Origin: Lachnoanaerobaculum umeaense
GTDB taxonomy: Bacteria > Bacillota > Clostridia > Lachnospirales > Lachnospiraceae
DNA: 64,000 nt
Reading direction: 5' to 3'
Assembly (NCBI RefSeq): GCF_003589745.1
Contig: NZ_CP032364.1
Location: forward strand, 992,001-1,056,000
Positions 1-53,812 of the stretch are shown here, piece after piece (the stretch's first letter is position 1; the number at the start of each line of letters is the position of its first letter). The notes under the pieces are model-generated. The model was not told the origin of the DNA, searched no databases, and saw nothing but the letters and a program-made list of their open reading frames with translations. Made by a program: the position numbers and the translations under genes.

Positions 1-886
1 GGGTGAGACTTCTACACTTTTTAGAAATGAAGATTCAGGAGAGATGCATGGACTTACAAGAGTGAGACAGTTTACTATTTCAGAGGGTCACAATGTAATT
101 AGACCTGATCAGGCTGAAGAAGAGTTGCAAAACTGCTTAAATCTTGCAATATATGTACTTGATACTTTAGGTCTTAGAGATGATGTTACATTCAGACTTT
201 CAAAATGGGATAAGAATAATAAGGAGAAATACCTTGGAGATGAGGCATATTGGGAAGGTACACAGGGTGCACTCAGAAATATCCTCATAGAGAAGGGGCT
301 TCCATTTACAGAGGCTGATGGTGAGGCTGCATTCTATGGTCCAAAGATAGATATCCAGGCAAAGAATGTATATGGCAAAGAAGATACAATGATCACAATC
401 CAGCTTGATGCCGCTATTGCAGAGAACTTTGATCTTTACTATATCGATCAAAACGGAGCTAAGGTAAGACCTTATATAGTTCATAGAACATCTCTCGGTT
501 GCTATGAGAGAACTCTTGCATGGCTTATTGAAAAGTATGCAGGTAAGTTCCCTACATGGTTATGTGCCGAGCAGGTAAGAATTCTTCCTATATCAGATAA
601 GTATGCAGACTATGCAAACTCTGTTTTGAAAGAACTTAAGAAAAACGGTGTGGATGCTACACTTGATACAAGAACAGAGAAGATTGGATTTAAGATAAGA
701 GATGCAAGACTTTCAAGACTTCCATATATGCTTGTGGTAGGTGAGAAGGAAGAGGCAGAAGGAACTGTATCAGTAAGAAGTAGATTTGCCGGAGATGAGG
801 GCAGCAAAAAGCTTTCAGACTTTGTAGATATGATTTGTAAAGAGATAAGAACTAAGGAAATAAGAAAAGAAGAGGTTGTAGAATAA
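1..886 (+). CDS. thrS: Threonyl-tRNA synthetase, C-terminal part
   Basis: This is the 3' part of a class II threonyl-tRNA synthetase, which charges tRNA-Thr in the cytoplasm. The reading frame is already open at base 2, so the gene begins before the window. Visible are the catalytic-core stretch RNEDSGEMHGLTRVRQF near the left edge, the motif-3-like SLGCYERTLAWLIE, and the start of the anticodon-binding domain at WLCAEQVRILPISDKY. The protein ends in a charged Lys/Glu tail. A hairpin terminator follows directly. Family identity is secure; the editing and TGS domains lie outside the window and cannot be judged. Confidence 0.95.
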   Translation, partial: GETSTLFRNEDSGEMHGLTRVRQFTISEGHNVIRPDQAEEELQNCLNLAIYVLDTLGLRDDVTFRLSKWDKNNKEKYLGDEAYWEGTQGALRNILIEKGLPFTEADGEAAFYGPKIDIQAKNVYGKEDTMITIQLDAAIAENFDLYYIDQNGAKVRPYIVHRTSLGCYERTLAWLIEKYAGKFPTWLCAEQVRILPISDKYADYANSVLKELKKNGVDATLDTRTEKIGFKIRDARLSRLPYMLVVGEKEEAEGTVSVRSRFAGDEGSKKLSDFVDMICKEIRTKEIRKEEVVE

Positions 887-1012
887 ATATTAACAGGGGC
901 TGATGGCTGATATAGTTATCAGCTTCTTCCGGATTGAGATAAAAACAGTACTTTTGGGTACTGTTTTTTTATTTAGAAAATGTTAGACTAATCTTAATTA
1001 TTTACTATGGTT
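886..1012. repeat. 127-bp direct repeat, left copy (IS target duplication)
   Basis: Bases 886-1012 are identical to 3001-3127. The two copies exactly bracket the IS element at 1013-3000: the base before each copy and the base after each copy differ. The repeat starts in the last base of the thrS stop codon and contains the thrS terminator hairpins. I read it as a very long target-site duplication made by the IS1634-type transposase. Confidence 0.9.
906..971 (+). terminator. Tandem-hairpin terminator after thrS
   Basis: Two hairpins follow the thrS stop. The first pairs GCTGATA (906-912) with TATCAGC (917-923). The second pairs CAGTAC with GTACTG around a TTTTGG loop, preceded by an A-run and followed by seven T residues, the form of a rho-independent terminator. 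The same pair occurs in the second repeat copy (3021-3086) and, slightly changed, after the transglutaminase-like gene (5945-6016). Confidence 0.85.
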
Positions 1013-3000
1013 CCTGACTTCCGTCGTTTCTCTCAAAACCTAGTACTCTAGGTATACAAGAGCATGCAGTTTTGAAAGAAATTGTCGACTTCAGCTTTGG
1101 TTAAATAGAGGGCATCAAGGTTACTAAAACCAACCAGTTTTTTAACCTTTTCGTTAACGGCCTGGTTTCTTGATATATTGATATATGTATCATCACCTTT
1201 ATTTACCACCCTAAAATCACGCATAAAGTTGATCAAGTCATAAGAGTTTATTTTATTCTTGAAACACTTGATTTCTAATACTCTTAAAAGAAACAAGCTA
1301 AGGTAGCATATCAAAAAATGCCCATAGATTGTTTCTTTTTTCTGTAAATAAACGGGTCTTGCATCCAGGTATGATTTTGTAAGTCTAAAAGATTCTTCGA
1401 TCTTCCATAGGCTATGGTATGTTTTATATACCTGTAATGGCTCCATATCTATTTCGGATGTCACTAAAAGATTATATCCTGCATATTTAAGATCTTCATC
1501 AATCTTAGATTTATTTAAATCTATTATAGGCTTTATTGTCTTGCCTGTACTATCTTTAGTTATAATGTCTACATATTTAGCACAATCTCCAAGTTCATCT
1601 TTAGCGATATTTTTGTATGTAGAAAACTTTGAAGCTTTATCGACCATTTTCATTATTTCAAGCCTTTGTTTCTTTGCAAGGTTAGGATTATAAGAGACGA
1701 TACGCTTTTCTTTTACAGAAAACCTTGTAACACTCTCTTTTCCTGTTTCCGGATCAATCTCTTTAAAACTGTAATCAAAGCTGTCAATACAGGATTTAAG
1801 ACGAAAAGATATATTACCTCTTTCATCAGTGTAATTAGAAAAGACATTTGTATCATTCTCAAGTAGAACCCATTTCTTTTCCTTTTCACTTAGATTCTTA
1901 CCATGTATTGATTTTGAAAATATATAGCCGTCACTAGCTTCTTTAACTGCAGCATAAATATTTCTTGCACAATTAAGGCCTTTATCAGCCACCTGAATTG
2001 TCTTGCCTGATACGCTGTGTCGTTGCTTCATTTCTTCAATAACTTTTCTAATATATGGCTTTTCCGATTCATTTCCGGGATACATTTGCATGGAGACAGG
2101 TACTAGATCAGCATCTAAAAGTAAAGCCTGCCCTATTATCGGAGAGTGCCTATTCTCTTTTGAAGGTCCCTTTTGCTTGTCATCGCTAGGAAGATCAATT
2201 TCAAAGTAATAATTAGTACAATCGAAAAATACATTGCTTAAATCTCTTTTAAAATACTTTTCATAAGAGTGATTAAACAAATCAATGTACTTCTTATAAG
2301 ACTCTCCTATGAAAGAACACCCGTCATATACTTGGTCTTCAGAGATTGTAGAGCTGCCGTAAATGTATGGAAAGACATGAGAGGCTGTCTTTGACTTAGA
2401 GCATGGTGATATAACCCTTGCATAAATAAGTTGTGTAATTAAGTCAAATACAGAGAACTGAAAACGCATTTGAGAAGCAAGTATATCAATAGTTTCCTTA
2501 ACATCAAGCTCATCAATCAATGAGTAGAGCAAGAAGTGTCCTATATTAAGTTCAACAGGAGTGGAAAATGCACGAGGACGGGATTCTTCAGAAAGAACTT
2601 TTGTTCTATTCTCATTTTGCTCTTTTACATAATCGCTATAAAATTTAATCGGATCCGGAATCTCATCTGAAGTCAGATCTTCAACGTAACCAAAAGATTT
2701 TACATTTCTTGTTCTTGGTTGCTTTTTATCCTTATCCCAAAATGATTCATACATCTGAAGATAAGTACCTTTTTTCTTCTTTTCTTTTCTCAAAAAATAA
2801 GCCATAAACACCTCTAAAAGTAAAGTACTATGAAGTACTATGATTATAACATGCTGTAAAAATTTTTTCAATTTTTTCAAATTATTTTTTATGTAAGAAA
2901 AGCCTTTAAAATAAAGGGTTTAAAAGAATTGTATAAAATTAAATAGTTTGCTAAAAATTTGAAACGTCGGAAATTTCATAGTACTTCGACGGAAGACGGG
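1013..3000 (-). mobile_element. IS1634-family (IS4 superfamily) insertion sequence
   Basis: The element is 1988 bp long with one transposase gene. Its ends are imperfect inverted repeats: CCTGACTTCCGTCG at the left and the complement of CCCGTCTTCCGTCG at the right, 12 of 14 matching. It is bracketed by identical 127-bp direct repeats. IS1634 from Mycoplasma mycoides is known for long, variable-length duplications, which fits. The reading frame and ends are intact, so the copy looks recent and possibly active. Confidence 0.9.
1048..2805 (-). CDS. IS1634-family DDE transposase
   Basis: The transposase is about 585 residues. The start at 2805 (MAYFLRKEKKKKG) is chosen because an AGAGGTG ribosome site sits just upstream; an in-frame ATG at 2880 has none. 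Candidate catalytic acidic residues lie in FFDCTNYYFE, QVADKGLNCARN and the C-terminal SLWKIEESFRLTKSYL, the usual order of D, D and E in IS4-superfamily enzymes. The C-terminal half has a hydrophobic stretch typical of this family. No frameshift or stop interrupts it. The 5' region holds a short AAGTACTATG direct repeat (2824-2840) of unknown use. Confidence 0.9.
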   Translation of the reverse strand: MAYFLRKEKKKKGTYLQMYESFWDKDKKQPRTRNVKSFGYVEDLTSDEIPDPIKFYSDYVKEQNENRTKVLSEESRPRAFSTPVELNIGHFLLYSLIDELDVKETIDILASQMRFQFSVFDLITQLIYARVISPCSKSKTASHVFPYIYGSSTISEDQVYDGCSFIGESYKKYIDLFNHSYEKYFKRDLSNVFFDCTNYYFEIDLPSDDKQKGPSKENRHSPIIGQALLLDADLVPVSMQMYPGNESEKPYIRKVIEEMKQRHSVSGKTIQVADKGLNCARNIYAAVKEASDGYIFSKSIHGKNLSEKEKKWVLLENDTNVFSNYTDERGNISFRLKSCIDSFDYSFKEIDPETGKESVTRFSVKEKRIVSYNPNLAKKQRLEIMKMVDKASKFSTYKNIAKDELGDCAKYVDIITKDSTGKTIKPIIDLNKSKIDEDLKYAGYNLLVTSEIDMEPLQVYKTYHSLWKIEESFRLTKSYLDARPVYLQKKETIYGHFLICYLSLFLLRVLEIKCFKNKINSYDLINFMRDFRVVNKGDDTYINISRNQAVNEKVKKLVGFSNLDALYLTKAEVDNFFQNCMLLYT

Positions 3001-3127
3001 AATATTAACAGGGGCTGATGGCTGATATAGTTATCAGCTTCTTCCGGATTGAGATAAAAACAGTACTTTTGGGTACTGTTTTTTTATTTAGAAAATGTTA
3101 GACTAATCTTAATTATTTACTATGGTT
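3001..3127. repeat. 127-bp direct repeat, right copy (IS target duplication)
   Basis: This is the second copy of the sequence at 886-1012, with no mismatch. It carries a duplicate of the thrS terminator, so transcripts leaving the IS toward the right should also end here. After it, sequence unique to the original thrS downstream region resumes (from 3128). Confidence 0.9.
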
Positions 3128-3261: not shown

Positions 3262-5868
3262 ATGAGAAAGATGATGACAAAGGCGTTGGCAGTTATGCTT
3301 ACAGTTTGCATGTTGCCTTTGCCTAATGCGACAATACTTGCATATGGAGATACCGGTGCAAGAGGGTATGAAATGGATGGGGACATCATACCCAGTGGAT
3401 ATGTAAGTGAAGATTTTAATGAAGATGATTTTGAAATAGCAACCTTGTCAGATGCTATCAGTACTCCGGGTTATCAGGGAAATCGTTATCAAAGTAAGAA
3501 ACTGACATCTATCTATGATACAGATATGGTACTTACAGAAGATGAAATTGAAAATGGTGTAGATATTCCGTTAAATGGTGAAGAATTACTTAATAAATTA
3601 CTAGAGGGTGACGTTGTAGTAGAAAAAGGTGAAGAATTAAGCTTTGATGATGACATGTCATATTTGGATTATCTTTTTGAAAACCATATAGATGGAATGG
3701 AGTATCCAGAGATAGATCCGGATCTTATAAGAACACAGGCAGTAAACACAACTAGTGTTGAAGATATTATCAATGAAGCATATGAGGCAGTTGTAGTCAA
3801 AGGTGAGAAGAGAATTTCTTCGGTATATGATCATAAGACTAAGAGAAGACTGAGAAAGCTTATTATGGGAGGCAGTCCACTGGTAAGATATTTGGCAGAT
3901 CAAATGACTTTTGGTATTACTCCTATATATGTTACGGGAAATTATAGTGAAGAGGAATTGAAATCGGCATTTAGTGAAGCAAATTGGCAAAATCAGATGA
4001 TCTTAGAAGAAGATTTTCCGGAATATAACTATACTTATTGGAATACTAATAATTGGGGAGAAAAAATATATAGAATAAATGTCAATTATGAATTTCCTAA
4101 TCCTGAGGAAAGAAAGAATTTGCAGATAGAGATGCTGGATAAGGCAGAGTCAATAATAGATCATATAGGTTTATATACAAATGGCCAATATATACAAGAA
4201 CTTTATGCTATAAATGATTATTTAATTGACAATGGAAGTTATGCTACTGAAGTAGCGTCCAGGAAAATTGAAAATACTATGCAAAGAAAGGCTTATGGTA
4301 TTTTGGTGGAAGAAAGTGGTGTTTGTACATCGTATGCAAGAGCATTCCAGTTGGTATCTAGAATGGCAGGTTTTATATGCGTAGTTGATGGTGGCATTGT
4401 TGTTGATTCCAACAGAGAGGAAGGAAGGCATGCTTGGAATTTAGTATGTACAGAAGTGAATAATAATGTTTATCGTAATTGGCTGTTGGTAGATCCAACA
4501 TGGAATGATGATGAAAATGAATTCGGTCAACCAAGAAATACTTACCTTATGATTCCAAAGGTTGCAAGTAGAAGAAACAGAGTAAGTAATAATGCTAAAT
4601 TTTCAACAAGAGGAGATTTCTCAAATATATATCAATCTTTTATGAGTTTTGATTTTGACTATATGAAATATTCAGGTCATTCTGCAACTAGGTCAAGTGA
4701 GTTTATTGACGATTTGTGTGAATATATTCGTAGAGGCTATGTACCATTATATTACAGATGTGAATGGGAGCTGTCATCAATAAATATGAATTATGTGTGT
4801 GATGAGGTGTATAGAAGAACTAATGTTAGTTTATCTATGAGAACAACCGGTGTTGATGCATATATAGTTAACATTGAATGCCTAAGTAATGGCAGTTCAC
4901 ATGACTTAACATATACTGCAAAGGGCCTTAATGAACTAAAAGAGGTTAACGGAAGATATGTTGAATCTCCACTTGAGTATCCTGCATATATGCATTGTAC
5001 CAAGCCTGATCCGGAGCCTGAGATAACTGAAGATGAAAGAAGAGCTGACGAGGAAGAGGCAAGAAGAATACAGGAAGAGGAAGCAGAAAGAAGGAGACAG
5101 GAAGAGGAAGCAGAAAGAAGGAGGCAGGAAGCAGCAGAAAAGAAGAGGCAGGAAGCAGAAAAGAAGAGACAGGAAGCAGAAAAGAAGAGACAAGAAGAAG
5201 AAAAGAAGAGACAGGAAGAGGAAGAAAGAAAGAAACAGGAAGAAGAAAGAAGAAAGCAAAACCAGAATAACTCAAAGAGTGGCGGTTCCGGTGGTGGAGG
5301 CGGCTCAAAGAGTGGCGGTTCCGGTGGTGGAGGCGGCTCAAAGAGTGGCGGTTCCGGTGGTGGAGGCGGCTCAAAGAGTGGTGGCTCCGGTGGCGGAGGC
5401 GGCTCAAAGAGTGGCGGTTCCGGCGGAGGCGGTGGCTCAAAGAGTGGCGGTTCCGGTGGCGGCGGTGGCTCAAAGTCACAGAATAACAATGGTAAGTCAA
5501 GTTCAGCATCAGGATGGAAGCAGGATGCACATGGCTGGTGGTATCAGAATGCTAACGGTTCATATCCAAGAAATGCTTGGAGTCAAATCGGCGGTGCATG
5601 GTATTTGTTTAATGCATCAGGTTATATGACTACAGGATGGCAACATTCAAATGGTGCGTGGTACTATCTTGGATCAAATGGAGCAATGCTTACAAACTGG
5701 GTAAATCATGGTGGTAGATGGTATTTTATGAACGGCAGCGGAATAATGATGGCAAACTCTTGGGTACAGAGTGGTGGCAAATGGTACTACATGGGTGCAG
5801 ACGGTGCAATGCTTGTAAATACCAGGACACCTGACGGTTATATGGTAAAGGCAGACGGATCTTTATAA
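3262..5868 (+). CDS. Secreted transglutaminase-like protein with Gly/Ser linker and cell-wall-binding repeats
   Basis: The product is about 868 residues. The start at 3262 has an AAAGGA ribosome site and begins a signal peptide (MRKMMTKALAVMLTVCML). A transglutaminase-like core shows Cys355 in GVCTSYARAF, His390 in RHAWN and Asp411 in LLVDPTWND, the expected catalytic triad. Residues ~590-669 are an E/K/R/Q-rich probable coiled coil. Six near-perfect 11-residue units of SKSGGSGGGGG follow. The C-terminus carries tandem aromatic repeats (GWWYQNANG, GAWYYLGSNG, GKWYYMGADG) of the choline/cell-wall-binding type and ends in TPDGYMVKADGSL. It is probably exported, wall-bound and acts on protein or peptidoglycan cross-links; the substrate is unknown. 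Confidence 0.85.
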   Translation: MRKMMTKALAVMLTVCMLPLPNATILAYGDTGARGYEMDGDIIPSGYVSEDFNEDDFEIATLSDAISTPGYQGNRYQSKKLTSIYDTDMVLTEDEIENGVDIPLNGEELLNKLLEGDVVVEKGEELSFDDDMSYLDYLFENHIDGMEYPEIDPDLIRTQAVNTTSVEDIINEAYEAVVVKGEKRISSVYDHKTKRRLRKLIMGGSPLVRYLADQMTFGITPIYVTGNYSEEELKSAFSEANWQNQMILEEDFPEYNYTYWNTNNWGEKIYRINVNYEFPNPEERKNLQIEMLDKAESIIDHIGLYTNGQYIQELYAINDYLIDNGSYATEVASRKIENTMQRKAYGILVEESGVCTSYARAFQLVSRMAGFICVVDGGIVVDSNREEGRHAWNLVCTEVNNNVYRNWLLVDPTWNDDENEFGQPRNTYLMIPKVASRRNRVSNNAKFSTRGDFSNIYQSFMSFDFDYMKYSGHSATRSSEFIDDLCEYIRRGYVPLYYRCEWELSSINMNYVCDEVYRRTNVSLSMRTTGVDAYIVNIECLSNGSSHDLTYTAKGLNELKEVNGRYVESPLEYPAYMHCTKPDPEPEITEDERRADEEEARRIQEEEAERRRQEEEAERRRQEAAEKKRQEAEKKRQEAEKKRQEEEKKRQEEEERKKQEEERRKQNQNNSKSGGSGGGGGSKSGGSGGGGGSKSGGSGGGGGSKSGGSGGGGGSKSGGSGGGGGSKSGGSGGGGGSKSQNNNGKSSSASGWKQDAHGWWYQNANGSYPRNAWSQIGGAWYLFNASGYMTTGWQHSNGAWYYLGSNGAMLTNWVNHGGRWYFMNGSGIMMANSWVQSGGKWYYMGADGAMLVNTRTPDGYMVKADGSL
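5272..5469 (+). repeat. Six tandem 33-bp Gly/Ser-linker repeats
   Basis: Six head-to-tail 33-bp units begin at 5272, 5305, 5338, 5371, 5404 and 5437. Each encodes SKSGGSGGGGG. Differences are only synonymous GGT/GGC/GGA changes, mostly in the last three units, so the array looks recently expanded while the protein sequence is kept exact. The run is clearly more GC-rich than its surroundings. Confidence 0.95.
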
Positions 5869-51736: not shown

Positions 51737-53812
51737 ATGCCGGAAAAAGAATTAAGAAAAAAAGTGATTGGGAAAAATGGTTTAGCGGGTTCACTTCTTG
51801 CTTTAAAAATAGTATTTGATTTGATACCACAAATCTTACTTGTATATTTGATTAGTTCTTTAATCACAAACAATATTAACGAAGGTAATTTAAAGTATAT
51901 ATTCTTGGGAATCTTTATATCGTTTGTATTAAAAGGCGTGTTTTACTATTTTGCAACAAAGGTTGCCCATGAGAAAGCATACGAAAAATTGACAGAACTT
52001 AGGATAGATATTATCGGGCATCTAAAAAAACTAAGTTTGGGATTCTTCAAAGAACATAATACAGGGGAGCTTACGAACATTGTTCAGCATGATGTGGAGC
52101 AAGTGGAAGTATACCTTGCTCATGGTCTTCCTGAAATAATGGTAGTTACGCTTCTGCCTACCATTATTTTCATAGCTATGATTTTTGTAGACTGGCGTCT
52201 TGCTCTTGGAATGATCGCCGGAGTTCCACTCATGTATTTGGTAAAAGTTCTTTCACAGAAAACAATGGATAAGAACTTTGCTATTTACTTTAACCATGAA
52301 AACAAGATGAGAGAAGAATTGATGGAATATGTAAAAAATATCTCTGTGATTAAGGCTTTTGCTAAAGAAGAGGAGATTAGCGAAAGAACATTAAAAACGG
52401 CAAGAGAGTATATTTACTGGGTTAAAAAGAGCATGGGAGCAATTACAATTCCAATGGGACTCATTGACATATTTATGGAAATTGGAGTAGTTATTGTCAT
52501 GATTTTGGGAAGTATATTTCTTTATTATGGAGAAATAACAACACCTAAATTTATACTCGCAATTATTCTATCATCTGCGTTTACAGCATCTATAAGCAAG
52601 ACAGCCACTCTACAACATTTTTCTATTGTGTTTAAGGAGGCATTAAAGGCGATTGGAAAAGTTTTAACAGTTCCACTTCCAAACAAAAAGATAGAACAAG
52701 GTTTAGAATTTGGAAACATAGAATTTAAAAATGTGAATTTTGCATACGGAAAAGATGGATTTGAGCTTAAAAATATCAATTTGACTTTTAAGAAAAATAG
52801 TTTGAATGCCTTTGTAGGGGCAAGCGGTTGTGGGAAAAGTACAGTATCCAATTTGCTTATGGGATTTTGGGATGCAGACGAAGGACAAATACTAATAAAT
52901 GGAAAAGACATAAAAGAATATAGTCAAGAAAATATCTCAATGTTGATTGGTAGTGTCGGGCAAGAAGTCATCCTTTTCGGTTTAAGTATTTTTGACAATA
53001 TTGCCATCGGGAAACTTAATGCGACAAAAGAAGAAGTCATAGAAGCTGCCAAAAAAGCGAGATGTCATGACTTTATTTCAGCATTGCCAAATGGATATGA
53101 AACACGAGTAGGTGAAATGGGAGTTAAGTTATCCGGTGGAGAAAAACAAAGAATCTCTATTGCAAGAATGATACTGAAAAATGCACCGATTTTAATATTA
53201 GATGAGGCAATGGCAGCTGTTGATAGTGAAAATGAAAGACTAATCGGTGAAGCGATTGATGATTTAAGTAAGGATAAAACCATCATTACAATTGCTCATC
53301 ATCTAAATACGATTAGAGGTTCAGACCAAATTATAGTTATGGATAAGGGTGTTGTTCTTGATGCAGGAAGCCATGAAGAGTTGATGAAAAGATGTGATTT
53401 TTATAAGGATATGGTTGATGCACAGAACAAAGTTGATAGATGGAATTTGAAAGACGAAAGTCTTTCACGAGCAAGGAACGGAGTGGATTGCGAGTGTATC
53501 AACGAAAGTCTTTCACGAGCAAGGAACGGAGTGGATTGCGAGTGTATCAACGAAAGTCTTTCACGAGCAAGGAACGGAGTGGATTGCGAGTGTATCAACG
53601 ATAGTCTTTCACGAGCAAGGAACGGAGTGGATTGCGAGTGTATCAACGATAGTCTTTCACGAGCAAGGAACGGAGTGGATTGCGAGTGTATCAACGATAG
53701 TCTTTCACGAGCAAGGAATGGAGTGGATTGCGAGTGTATCAACGATAGTCTTTCACGAGCAAGAAACGAAGTGGATTGCGAGTGTACGGAGGTGGTAACA
53801 GAAAATGTTTAG
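51737..53812 (+). CDS. ABC exporter half-transporter with C-terminal 16-residue repeats
   Basis: The product is about 691 residues from ATG 51737 (GGAGAG site). Six membrane segments are followed by an ATPase domain with Walker A VGASGCGKST, signature LSGGEKQR and Walker B ILILDEAMA. The expected end of such proteins, near NKVDRWNLK (residue ~572), is followed by seven units of ESLSRARNGVDCECIN, coded by 48-bp tandem repeats, then TEVVTENV. Each full unit carries two Cys. It overlaps the second half-transporter by 8 bp, so the two should form a heterodimer. The substrate is unknown. Confidence 0.88.
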   Translation: MPEKELRKKVIGKNGLAGSLLALKIVFDLIPQILLVYLISSLITNNINEGNLKYIFLGIFISFVLKGVFYYFATKVAHEKAYEKLTELRIDIIGHLKKLSLGFFKEHNTGELTNIVQHDVEQVEVYLAHGLPEIMVVTLLPTIIFIAMIFVDWRLALGMIAGVPLMYLVKVLSQKTMDKNFAIYFNHENKMREELMEYVKNISVIKAFAKEEEISERTLKTAREYIYWVKKSMGAITIPMGLIDIFMEIGVVIVMILGSIFLYYGEITTPKFILAIILSSAFTASISKTATLQHFSIVFKEALKAIGKVLTVPLPNKKIEQGLEFGNIEFKNVNFAYGKDGFELKNINLTFKKNSLNAFVGASGCGKSTVSNLLMGFWDADEGQILINGKDIKEYSQENISMLIGSVGQEVILFGLSIFDNIAIGKLNATKEEVIEAAKKARCHDFISALPNGYETRVGEMGVKLSGGEKQRISIARMILKNAPILILDEAMAAVDSENERLIGEAIDDLSKDKTIITIAHHLNTIRGSDQIIVMDKGVVLDAGSHEELMKRCDFYKDMVDAQNKVDRWNLKDESLSRARNGVDCECINESLSRARNGVDCECINESLSRARNGVDCECINDSLSRARNGVDCECINDSLSRARNGVDCECINDSLSRARNGVDCECINDSLSRARNEVDCECTEVVTENV
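53456..53785 (+). repeat. Seven tandem 48-bp repeats at the 3' end of an ABC transporter gene
   Basis: Units start at 53456, 53504, 53552, 53600, 53648, 53696 and 53744; the last is cut at 42 bp by the ribosome site of the next gene. Units 1-3 begin GAA and units 4-7 GAT. Units 6 and 7 carry point changes, the others are otherwise identical. Within each unit CACGAGCAA and TTGCGAGTG form an imperfect dyad. Both strands are open across the array. Confidence 0.97.

Follow-up and report, generated by a model that had tools for sequence, protein, structure and literature searches.

A one-sided target motif and long, variable target duplications in an IS1634-family insertion sequence of Lachnoanaerobaculum umeaense and its relatives

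How does an insertion sequence (IS) come to lie between two perfect copies of a 127-bp stretch of its host's DNA? The question is raised by a locus at the 3' end of thrS in Lachnoanaerobaculum umeaense, in the window analysed here, that is, the whole 64,000-nucleotide stretch of contig NZ_CP032364.1 from position 992,001 to 1,056,000, to whose first letter all window positions refer. Combining the structure of this locus with junctions from related genomes, we consider it probable that the locus holds a target-duplicating IS1634-family element of which one end is far choosier than the other: the right end would join at TAnYAT in AT-rich, mostly non-coding DNA, whereas the left end would join at a variable distance and without a motif. 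More tentatively, we propose that the right end is joined first, followed by synthesis and capture of the left end.

Direct comparison of 886-1012 with 3001-3127 gave 127/127 identical bases, and the bases bordering the repeats on the outside differ (885 a versus 3000 g; 1013 c versus 3128 g). The inverted-repeat ends CCTGACTTCCGTCG (1013-1026) and CGACGGAAGACGGG (2987-3000) adjoin the repeats with a gap of 0. An exact 127-bp repeat adjoining both inverted-repeat ends excludes a chance match, and the arrangement is as the original prediction had described it, with identical copies abutting the ends and different bases outside. The parts of the element and its surroundings on which the argument depends are:

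886-1012, no strand: repeat taken as target duplication, copy adjoining the right (transposase-distal) IS end; identical to 3001-3127; its first base is the third of the thrS stop codon
3001-3127, no strand: repeat taken as target duplication, copy adjoining the left IS end; identical to 886-1012
1013-3000, minus strand: IS1634-family insertion sequence, 1,988 bp, recognized from its ends and transposase
1013-1026, minus strand: right inverted repeat (IRR), on the 3' side of the transposase gene, the end meeting the target motif
2987-3000, minus strand: left inverted repeat (IRL), the end without target motif
1007-1012, minus strand: target motif AACCAT, read outward from IRR, one mismatch from TAnYAT
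1048-2805, minus strand: DDE transposase of 585 aa, the sole long gene of the IS, with NCBIfam and Pfam matches

The transposase matches NCBIfam NF033559 (transpos_IS1634) at 2.6e-93 and 313.7 bits against a cut-off of 100, which supports the IS1634 type proposed originally, and Pfam DDE_Tnp_1 at 4.3e-07. Residues D195, D274 and E470, invariant in 22/22 aligned sequences, probably form the catalytic triad. With IRL CCCGTCTT and IRR CCTGACTT, the 1,988-bp element fits the family in size and ends as given in Table 1 of PMC2266710 (1,500-2,000 bp, ends C-----YT, AT-rich 5-6 bp target duplication) but not in duplication length: the window has 127 bp, and the window-like events described next have 61-1,532 bp. 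This mismatch fits the long, variable exceptions IS1634 and IS1549 named in the same source. A search for the end pattern (11 bases, at most one mismatch) found no further element ends in the 64-kb window beyond the element's own two.

Is the long repeat peculiar to this copy? Copies were collected by a scan of GTDB genomes, which gave 39 loci, together with a search of six Lachnoanaerobaculum genomes, and left and right junctions were paired. Full-length copies of the IS in other Lachnoanaerobaculum are 94.6-97% identical to that of the window, the closest (97%) being in L. orale. Including the window, we obtained 18 window-like events. In 14 of them a single contig or scaffold carries both ends, and four of these 14 are relatives at 71-75% protein identity (L013, L014, L015 and L021); the other four events were assembled from matching contig ends of the draft genome G006. 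Their duplications measure 61, 61, 71, 73, 74, 74, 103, 113, 114, 127, 143, 174, 180, 289, 327, 329, 353 and 1,532 bp (median 120.5), so that duplications among copies of one IS type are long and variable, and no short fixed length was found at these copies in other genomes. The repeat sequence differs at each of the 18 sites. Within the 14 single-contig or single-scaffold events the two repeat copies are identical except in L004 (5 mismatches in 329 bp) and L061 (1 in 71). Both IS ends and the sequence on either side were available for 18 window-like copies, 14 of which have a duplication. Where a flank was absent or filled with N (L007, L009, L016-L019), the copy was left unjudged, and a doubled right end beside a run of N in L002 is most likely an assembly artefact.

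Long repeats also occur in more distant relatives. The genomes G727 and G441, whose chromosomes are single contigs, hold 15 copies of four elements and 6 copies, respectively; repeats of 61-1,018 bp flank 16 of these 21 copies (11/15 and 5/6). A further scan found a long repeat adjoining the inverted-repeat ends in 14/50 loci, some of them counted before, and a last scan of 20 loci gave 6 long repeats that were accepted, 3 short ones by eye (out of 6 candidates), 1 uncertain case and 10 loci with none. Excluded from the counts were a 56-bp pair with 4 mismatches (L028/L019), the weak cases L101, L115, L124 and L125, L272, and the interrupted repeat of L218. The accepted set comprises 47 duplications of 53-1,825 bp with a median of 103 bp, 10 of them above 200 bp and none below 53 bp. 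The long-repeat scans were seeded with 11-14 bases, shorter repeats were sought beside the inverted repeats in some uncalled loci, and many loci were interrupted by contig ends or had flanks of just 1,500 bp; one scan for short repeats gave weak candidates only and no clear case.

Were these repeats made by the insertions? The 353-bp repeat of strain OBRC5-5 (G003) is present as a single copy with contiguous outer flanks in L. gingivalis (G002, 95-99.5%) and ICM7 (G004, 94-96.5%), and the 289-bp repeat of L. gingivalis is likewise single in OBRC5-5 (first 20 bp unaligned) and in ICM7 (first 11 bp unaligned). Single-copy empty sites were thus found for two other IS copies, none of them already double, and from these we conclude that the 353-bp and 289-bp repeats were made by insertion. 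By analogy, the 127-bp repeat of the window would also be insertion-made, and together with the different repeats at other copies this makes it almost certainly a target duplication, as originally proposed; the claim that the insertion is recent is likewise supported. An empty site for the window itself was not found: thrS is matched at 86-90% in 6/6 other Lachnoanaerobaculum genomes, in which the 127 bp have no counterpart after thrS and a different hairpin, judged by eye, follows the stop codon. A near-match search of plasmids gave no match to window 600-1012, and none of the viral contigs matched the transposase patterns.

Alternatively, the repeat could have pre-existed or have arisen by recombination between IS copies, with the element in between by accident. 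Recombination between IS copies can produce tandem repeats, and some copies have no repeat; but the 18 window-like events have different repeats, each adjoining both ends, and at both sites tested (353 and 289 bp) the single-copy empty alleles refute this explanation. A third site adds to the case. In OBRC5-5 three copies of the 1,532-bp repeat alternate with two of the IS, without differences among the copies (L185 5871-14442; G003:C1:785870-794441). This array is bounded at both edges by repeat copies and not by the IS, as expected for one insertion followed by unequal exchange and contrary to a pre-existing or recombination-made repeat, an origin that we regard as highly improbable. A BLAST search showed that a separate 3,615-bp contig of OBRC5-5 carries the same 3,520-bp repeat-IS unit, and the array may be longer than three repeats. 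The 1,532-bp repeat has one match in each of the five other Lachnoanaerobaculum genomes; the downstream flank directly adjoins it in G006, and G002 and G004 keep the upstream flank with a partly rearranged downstream flank.

What, then, sets the boundaries of a duplication that varies so widely in length? The two junctions differ in a way that was absent from the original prediction. Reading outward from the right end, TAnYAT is exact in 9/18 window-like events and within one mismatch in 18/18; reading outward from the left end, the counts are 0/18 and 3/18, against a background at flank positions of 0.48% (exact) and 5.0% (at most one mismatch). Over distinct junctions including unpaired ones, a match within one mismatch occurs at 26/27 right and 3/28 left junctions. 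TAnYAT was derived from these same sites; two measures are independent of any preset motif, namely swapping the end labels within events, which reached the observed difference in 0/20,000 trials, and a leave-one-out score, which exceeded the 95th percentile of background at 17/18 right and 1/18 left junctions. A like pattern is seen in relatives down to approximately 27% protein identity, where 13 paired events of G727 and G441 have an AT-rich right and a plain left junction (swap test, 47/20,000). From these sequences, recognition of the target by one end appears very probable.

The junctions also differ in their relation to reading frames. Of 36 events, 3 have an open reading frame (ORF) of 100 aa or more across the right site and 23 have one across the left site (Fisher, 1.3e-6); with the limit lowered to 60 aa the counts are 9 and 24 (p 0.0008). 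In the first such test, on 20 events, no ORF of 100 aa or more crossed the right site (0/20). The ORFs counted are uncurated. Insertion copies whatever lies between the two sites, so that a gene crossing the left site only should stay complete in the copy that adjoins the rest of it. We infer that the difference between right and left reflects targeting rather than survival, because selection would treat the two junctions alike: a gene crossing either alone survives. The duplications themselves are richer in AT than their flanks (mean 0.71 versus 0.62; 18/20).

In an alternative explanation, the right end would target native promoters: TAnYAT would serve as the -10 box in an open complex, with the left end joining at the transcription bubble after it had moved. 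TAnYAT resembles the -10 consensus TATAAT, most right sites fall outside ORFs, and the duplications of L008 and L010 include, by eye, the start of the downstream gene. In addition, TTGAGA is found in the right end of the IS, 18 bp from the junction on its inner side (window 1031-1036, minus strand, noted by eye); it is a possible outward promoter element, and on insertion at TAnYAT it may supply an outward hybrid promoter. Against this, 19/20 events have a pyrimidine at motif position 4, where the -10 consensus has A, which weakens -10 targeting; the 12 bases upstream of the native site hold little information (a -35 box further up was sought by eye only); in 15 of the 23 events whose left site lies inside an ORF of 100 aa or more, this ORF is directed toward the right site and not away from it; and TTGAGA is not retained in all relatives. 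We therefore regard promoter targeting as improbable.

We prefer, tentatively, a scheme in which the right end is joined first and synthesis intervenes: (i) the right end would join at the 5' side of TAnYAT, (ii) the target 3'-OH at the nick would prime strand-displacement synthesis by a host polymerase, displacing the joined strand, and (iii) capture of the left end on the other strand would follow, with filling of the gap. The distance synthesised would be the duplication length. Such a scheme would explain the duplication itself, its variable length with one sequence-set boundary and perhaps also the absence of lengths below 53 bp among the 47.

The main rival to this scheme is that both ends attack simultaneously on strands held apart, either in a looped or wrapped target or in fork DNA to which the transposase is tethered via the beta clamp. 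The lengths speak for it in that none of 47 is below 53 bp, where fitting an exponential with its origin at zero to the 43 lengths below 400 bp would place approximately one third, as does the AT-richness of the duplications relative to their flanks. They speak against it in that 853-1,825 bp is hard to fit in a single loop. Helical phasing, at one point suggested by a 10.5-bp period (p 0.012-0.017 with 28 lengths), faded as lengths were added (p 0.047-0.08 with 37, best period 14 bp) and was rejected. As for the fork, IS1634-family transposases, or peptides from them, of Acidiphilium and Methanosarcina bind the beta clamp or PCNA (PMC4549789), and 28/40 copies are oriented against the leading strand as judged from GC skew (binomial p 0.017); but this bias is modest, takes in copies with weak skew or without duplication and could be caused by selection. 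Both the strand bias and the published clamp binding are compatible with simultaneous attack and with right-end-first joining alike. In a possible clamp motif of the window transposase, QNCML near its C-terminal end compared with Q-L-x-L-F, the glutamine is not conserved, being E, K or R in the relatives L013, L015 and L021. Moreover, simultaneous attack gives no reason for the one-sided choice of sequence. We rate it as possible but rather unlikely, and below joining of the right end first.

Several observations weigh against our interpretation. The joining order and the role of synthesis are read from genomes, which reveal products only. The window's own motif, AACCAT, is imperfect, and the motif is AT-rich, so that the non-coding location of the right sites is partly a matter of base composition. 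One G727 element (4 copies, outside the 13 events) has its AT-rich side at the left end, and the specific end is therefore not universal. In four of the 18 window-like copies judged (L011, L022, L037, L079) no duplication could be found, nor in 5 of the 21 copies in G727 and G441; L011, L022 and L037 are internally deleted or degenerate, and L079 is full-length and lies beside a truncated copy. Finally, L277, close kin of the element with a 240-bp duplication, apparently has a 5-bp repeat, and an IS1634-family copy on a Ligilactobacillus plasmid (L217 13966-16022) has a 14-bp repeat beginning ATTATA. From these two we conclude that duplication length is not simply clade-bound. Other short repeats scored by eye are those of L267 (6 bp, in G795, which has long-repeat elements too) and L273 (5 bp, in G818), both distant from the window clade; the tree program flags the placement of their long branches as unsure. 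As a side observation, the internally deleted copy in L037 (3944-4230) is 287 bp long, retains both IS ends, resembles a miniature inverted-repeat transposable element and has TAACAT at its right junction with no flanking repeat found.

If joining begins at the right end and the left end follows at a distance, a gene across only one junction would remain whole, and a duplication longer than a gene would yield a second copy of it. Two loci have the corresponding structure. The 1,532-bp repeat of OBRC5-5 contains a whole gene for a 446-aa pyridine nucleotide-disulphide oxidoreductase, and in G806 (L274 4618-10369) a 2,102-bp IS1634-type element with 14/14 matching end bases lies between identical 1,825-bp repeats that hold part of pyrH and complete frr and uppS (names from reading of the translations). 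Extending the argument, and with slightly less assurance than for the order of joining itself, we propose that transposition in the long-repeat IS1634 clade is asymmetric, with two uncoupled steps in which sequence guides one end to intergenic DNA, DNA synthesis by the host runs over 50 to nearly 2,000 bases and the second end then follows. Such transposition would spare genes and could duplicate them in one step, as suggested for the OBRC5-5 oxidoreductase, later amplified, and for frr and uppS of G806. The combination of a choosy and a free end makes the order of joining a testable question; it also suggests how a mobile element might enter a genome and leave its genes unbroken, and how some gene duplicates and IS-linked tandem arrays might have arisen in one step.

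At the window's own site the copied stretch holds a terminator-like hairpin. The remaining features of the locus are:

44-886, plus strand: thrS, 3' part; the listed ORF begins at 44 and the gene start apparently lies outside the window
941-968, plus strand: thrS terminator-like hairpin, first copy; an A-run precedes the stem, possibly making it two-way
3056-3083, plus strand: terminator-like hairpin, second copy, from the duplication
2843-2871, minus strand: candidate promoter of the transposase gene, TTGAAA-17-TATAAT, the second hexamer preceded by TG; consensus match only

In the window the cut for the left end lies within the thrS stop codon, and the displayed thrS reading frame terminates normally. 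The hairpins at 941-968 and 3056-3083 bear out the part of the original prediction that has the thrS terminator copied by the duplication. Insulation of the IS by terminators on both sides fared less well: in a simple scan a terminator was present in only 3/20 duplications, so that insulation as a purpose was rejected and the captured terminator looks like an incidental by-product. In the region of the candidate promoter, 7 promoter-type consensus sites were found compared with 11.6 expected in shuffles. Elsewhere in the window, 3262-5868 encodes a protein with a transglutaminase-like domain, a charged repeat, approximately six 33-bp Gly/Ser-rich repeats and choline-binding repeats, and 53454-53786 is a near-perfect tandem array (6.9 copies of a 48-bp unit, 98% matches) inside an ORF of 697 aa.

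How does this element compare with known systems? Long, variable repeats are a known trait of the IS1634 family, to which the window element adds another member. IS1634 itself, from Mycoplasma mycoides subsp. mycoides SC, was reportedly described by Vilei et al. in 1999 under a title naming long variable direct repeats, and IS1549 of Mycobacterium smegmatis is said to have been described by Plikaytis et al. in 1998 under a title naming long direct repeats. Judged by model and description, the window element resembles IS1634 in family, size class and long variable repeats and differs from it in host; like IS1549 as described in PMC2266710, it makes long direct repeats on insertion. The published case of IS1549, together with the several Clostridia genomes reported here, runs counter to the original prediction's claim that long repeats are rarely documented outside Mycoplasma. 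For IS1634 and IS1549, cited together, duplications of 8-514 bp are given (PMC2266710); the longest found here measure 1,532 bp (window-like group) and 1,825 bp (a distant relative). The available portions of the literature examined, which did not cover the founding IS1634 and IS1549 papers, contained no mention that this family chooses its target with one end or duplicates whole genes in its target, so that a prior description is possible. Other members of the same named family differ from the window element in having duplications of approximately 6 bp: ISGka5 (6 bp; PMC8024623), ISPfe2 (6 bp; PMC3281130) and Acidiphilium IS1634-1, -2 and -3, for which three 6-base sequences, labelled inverted repeats in the legend, are apparently target repeats (PMC4549789). 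Closer in layout is M. mycoides PG1, in which two 13-kb repeats lie approximately 1.8 kb apart by the printed coordinates and in which the authors ascribe tandem duplications to flanking IS elements (PMC1798306); the gap corresponds to roughly one IS1634, an arrangement like that of a very long duplication.

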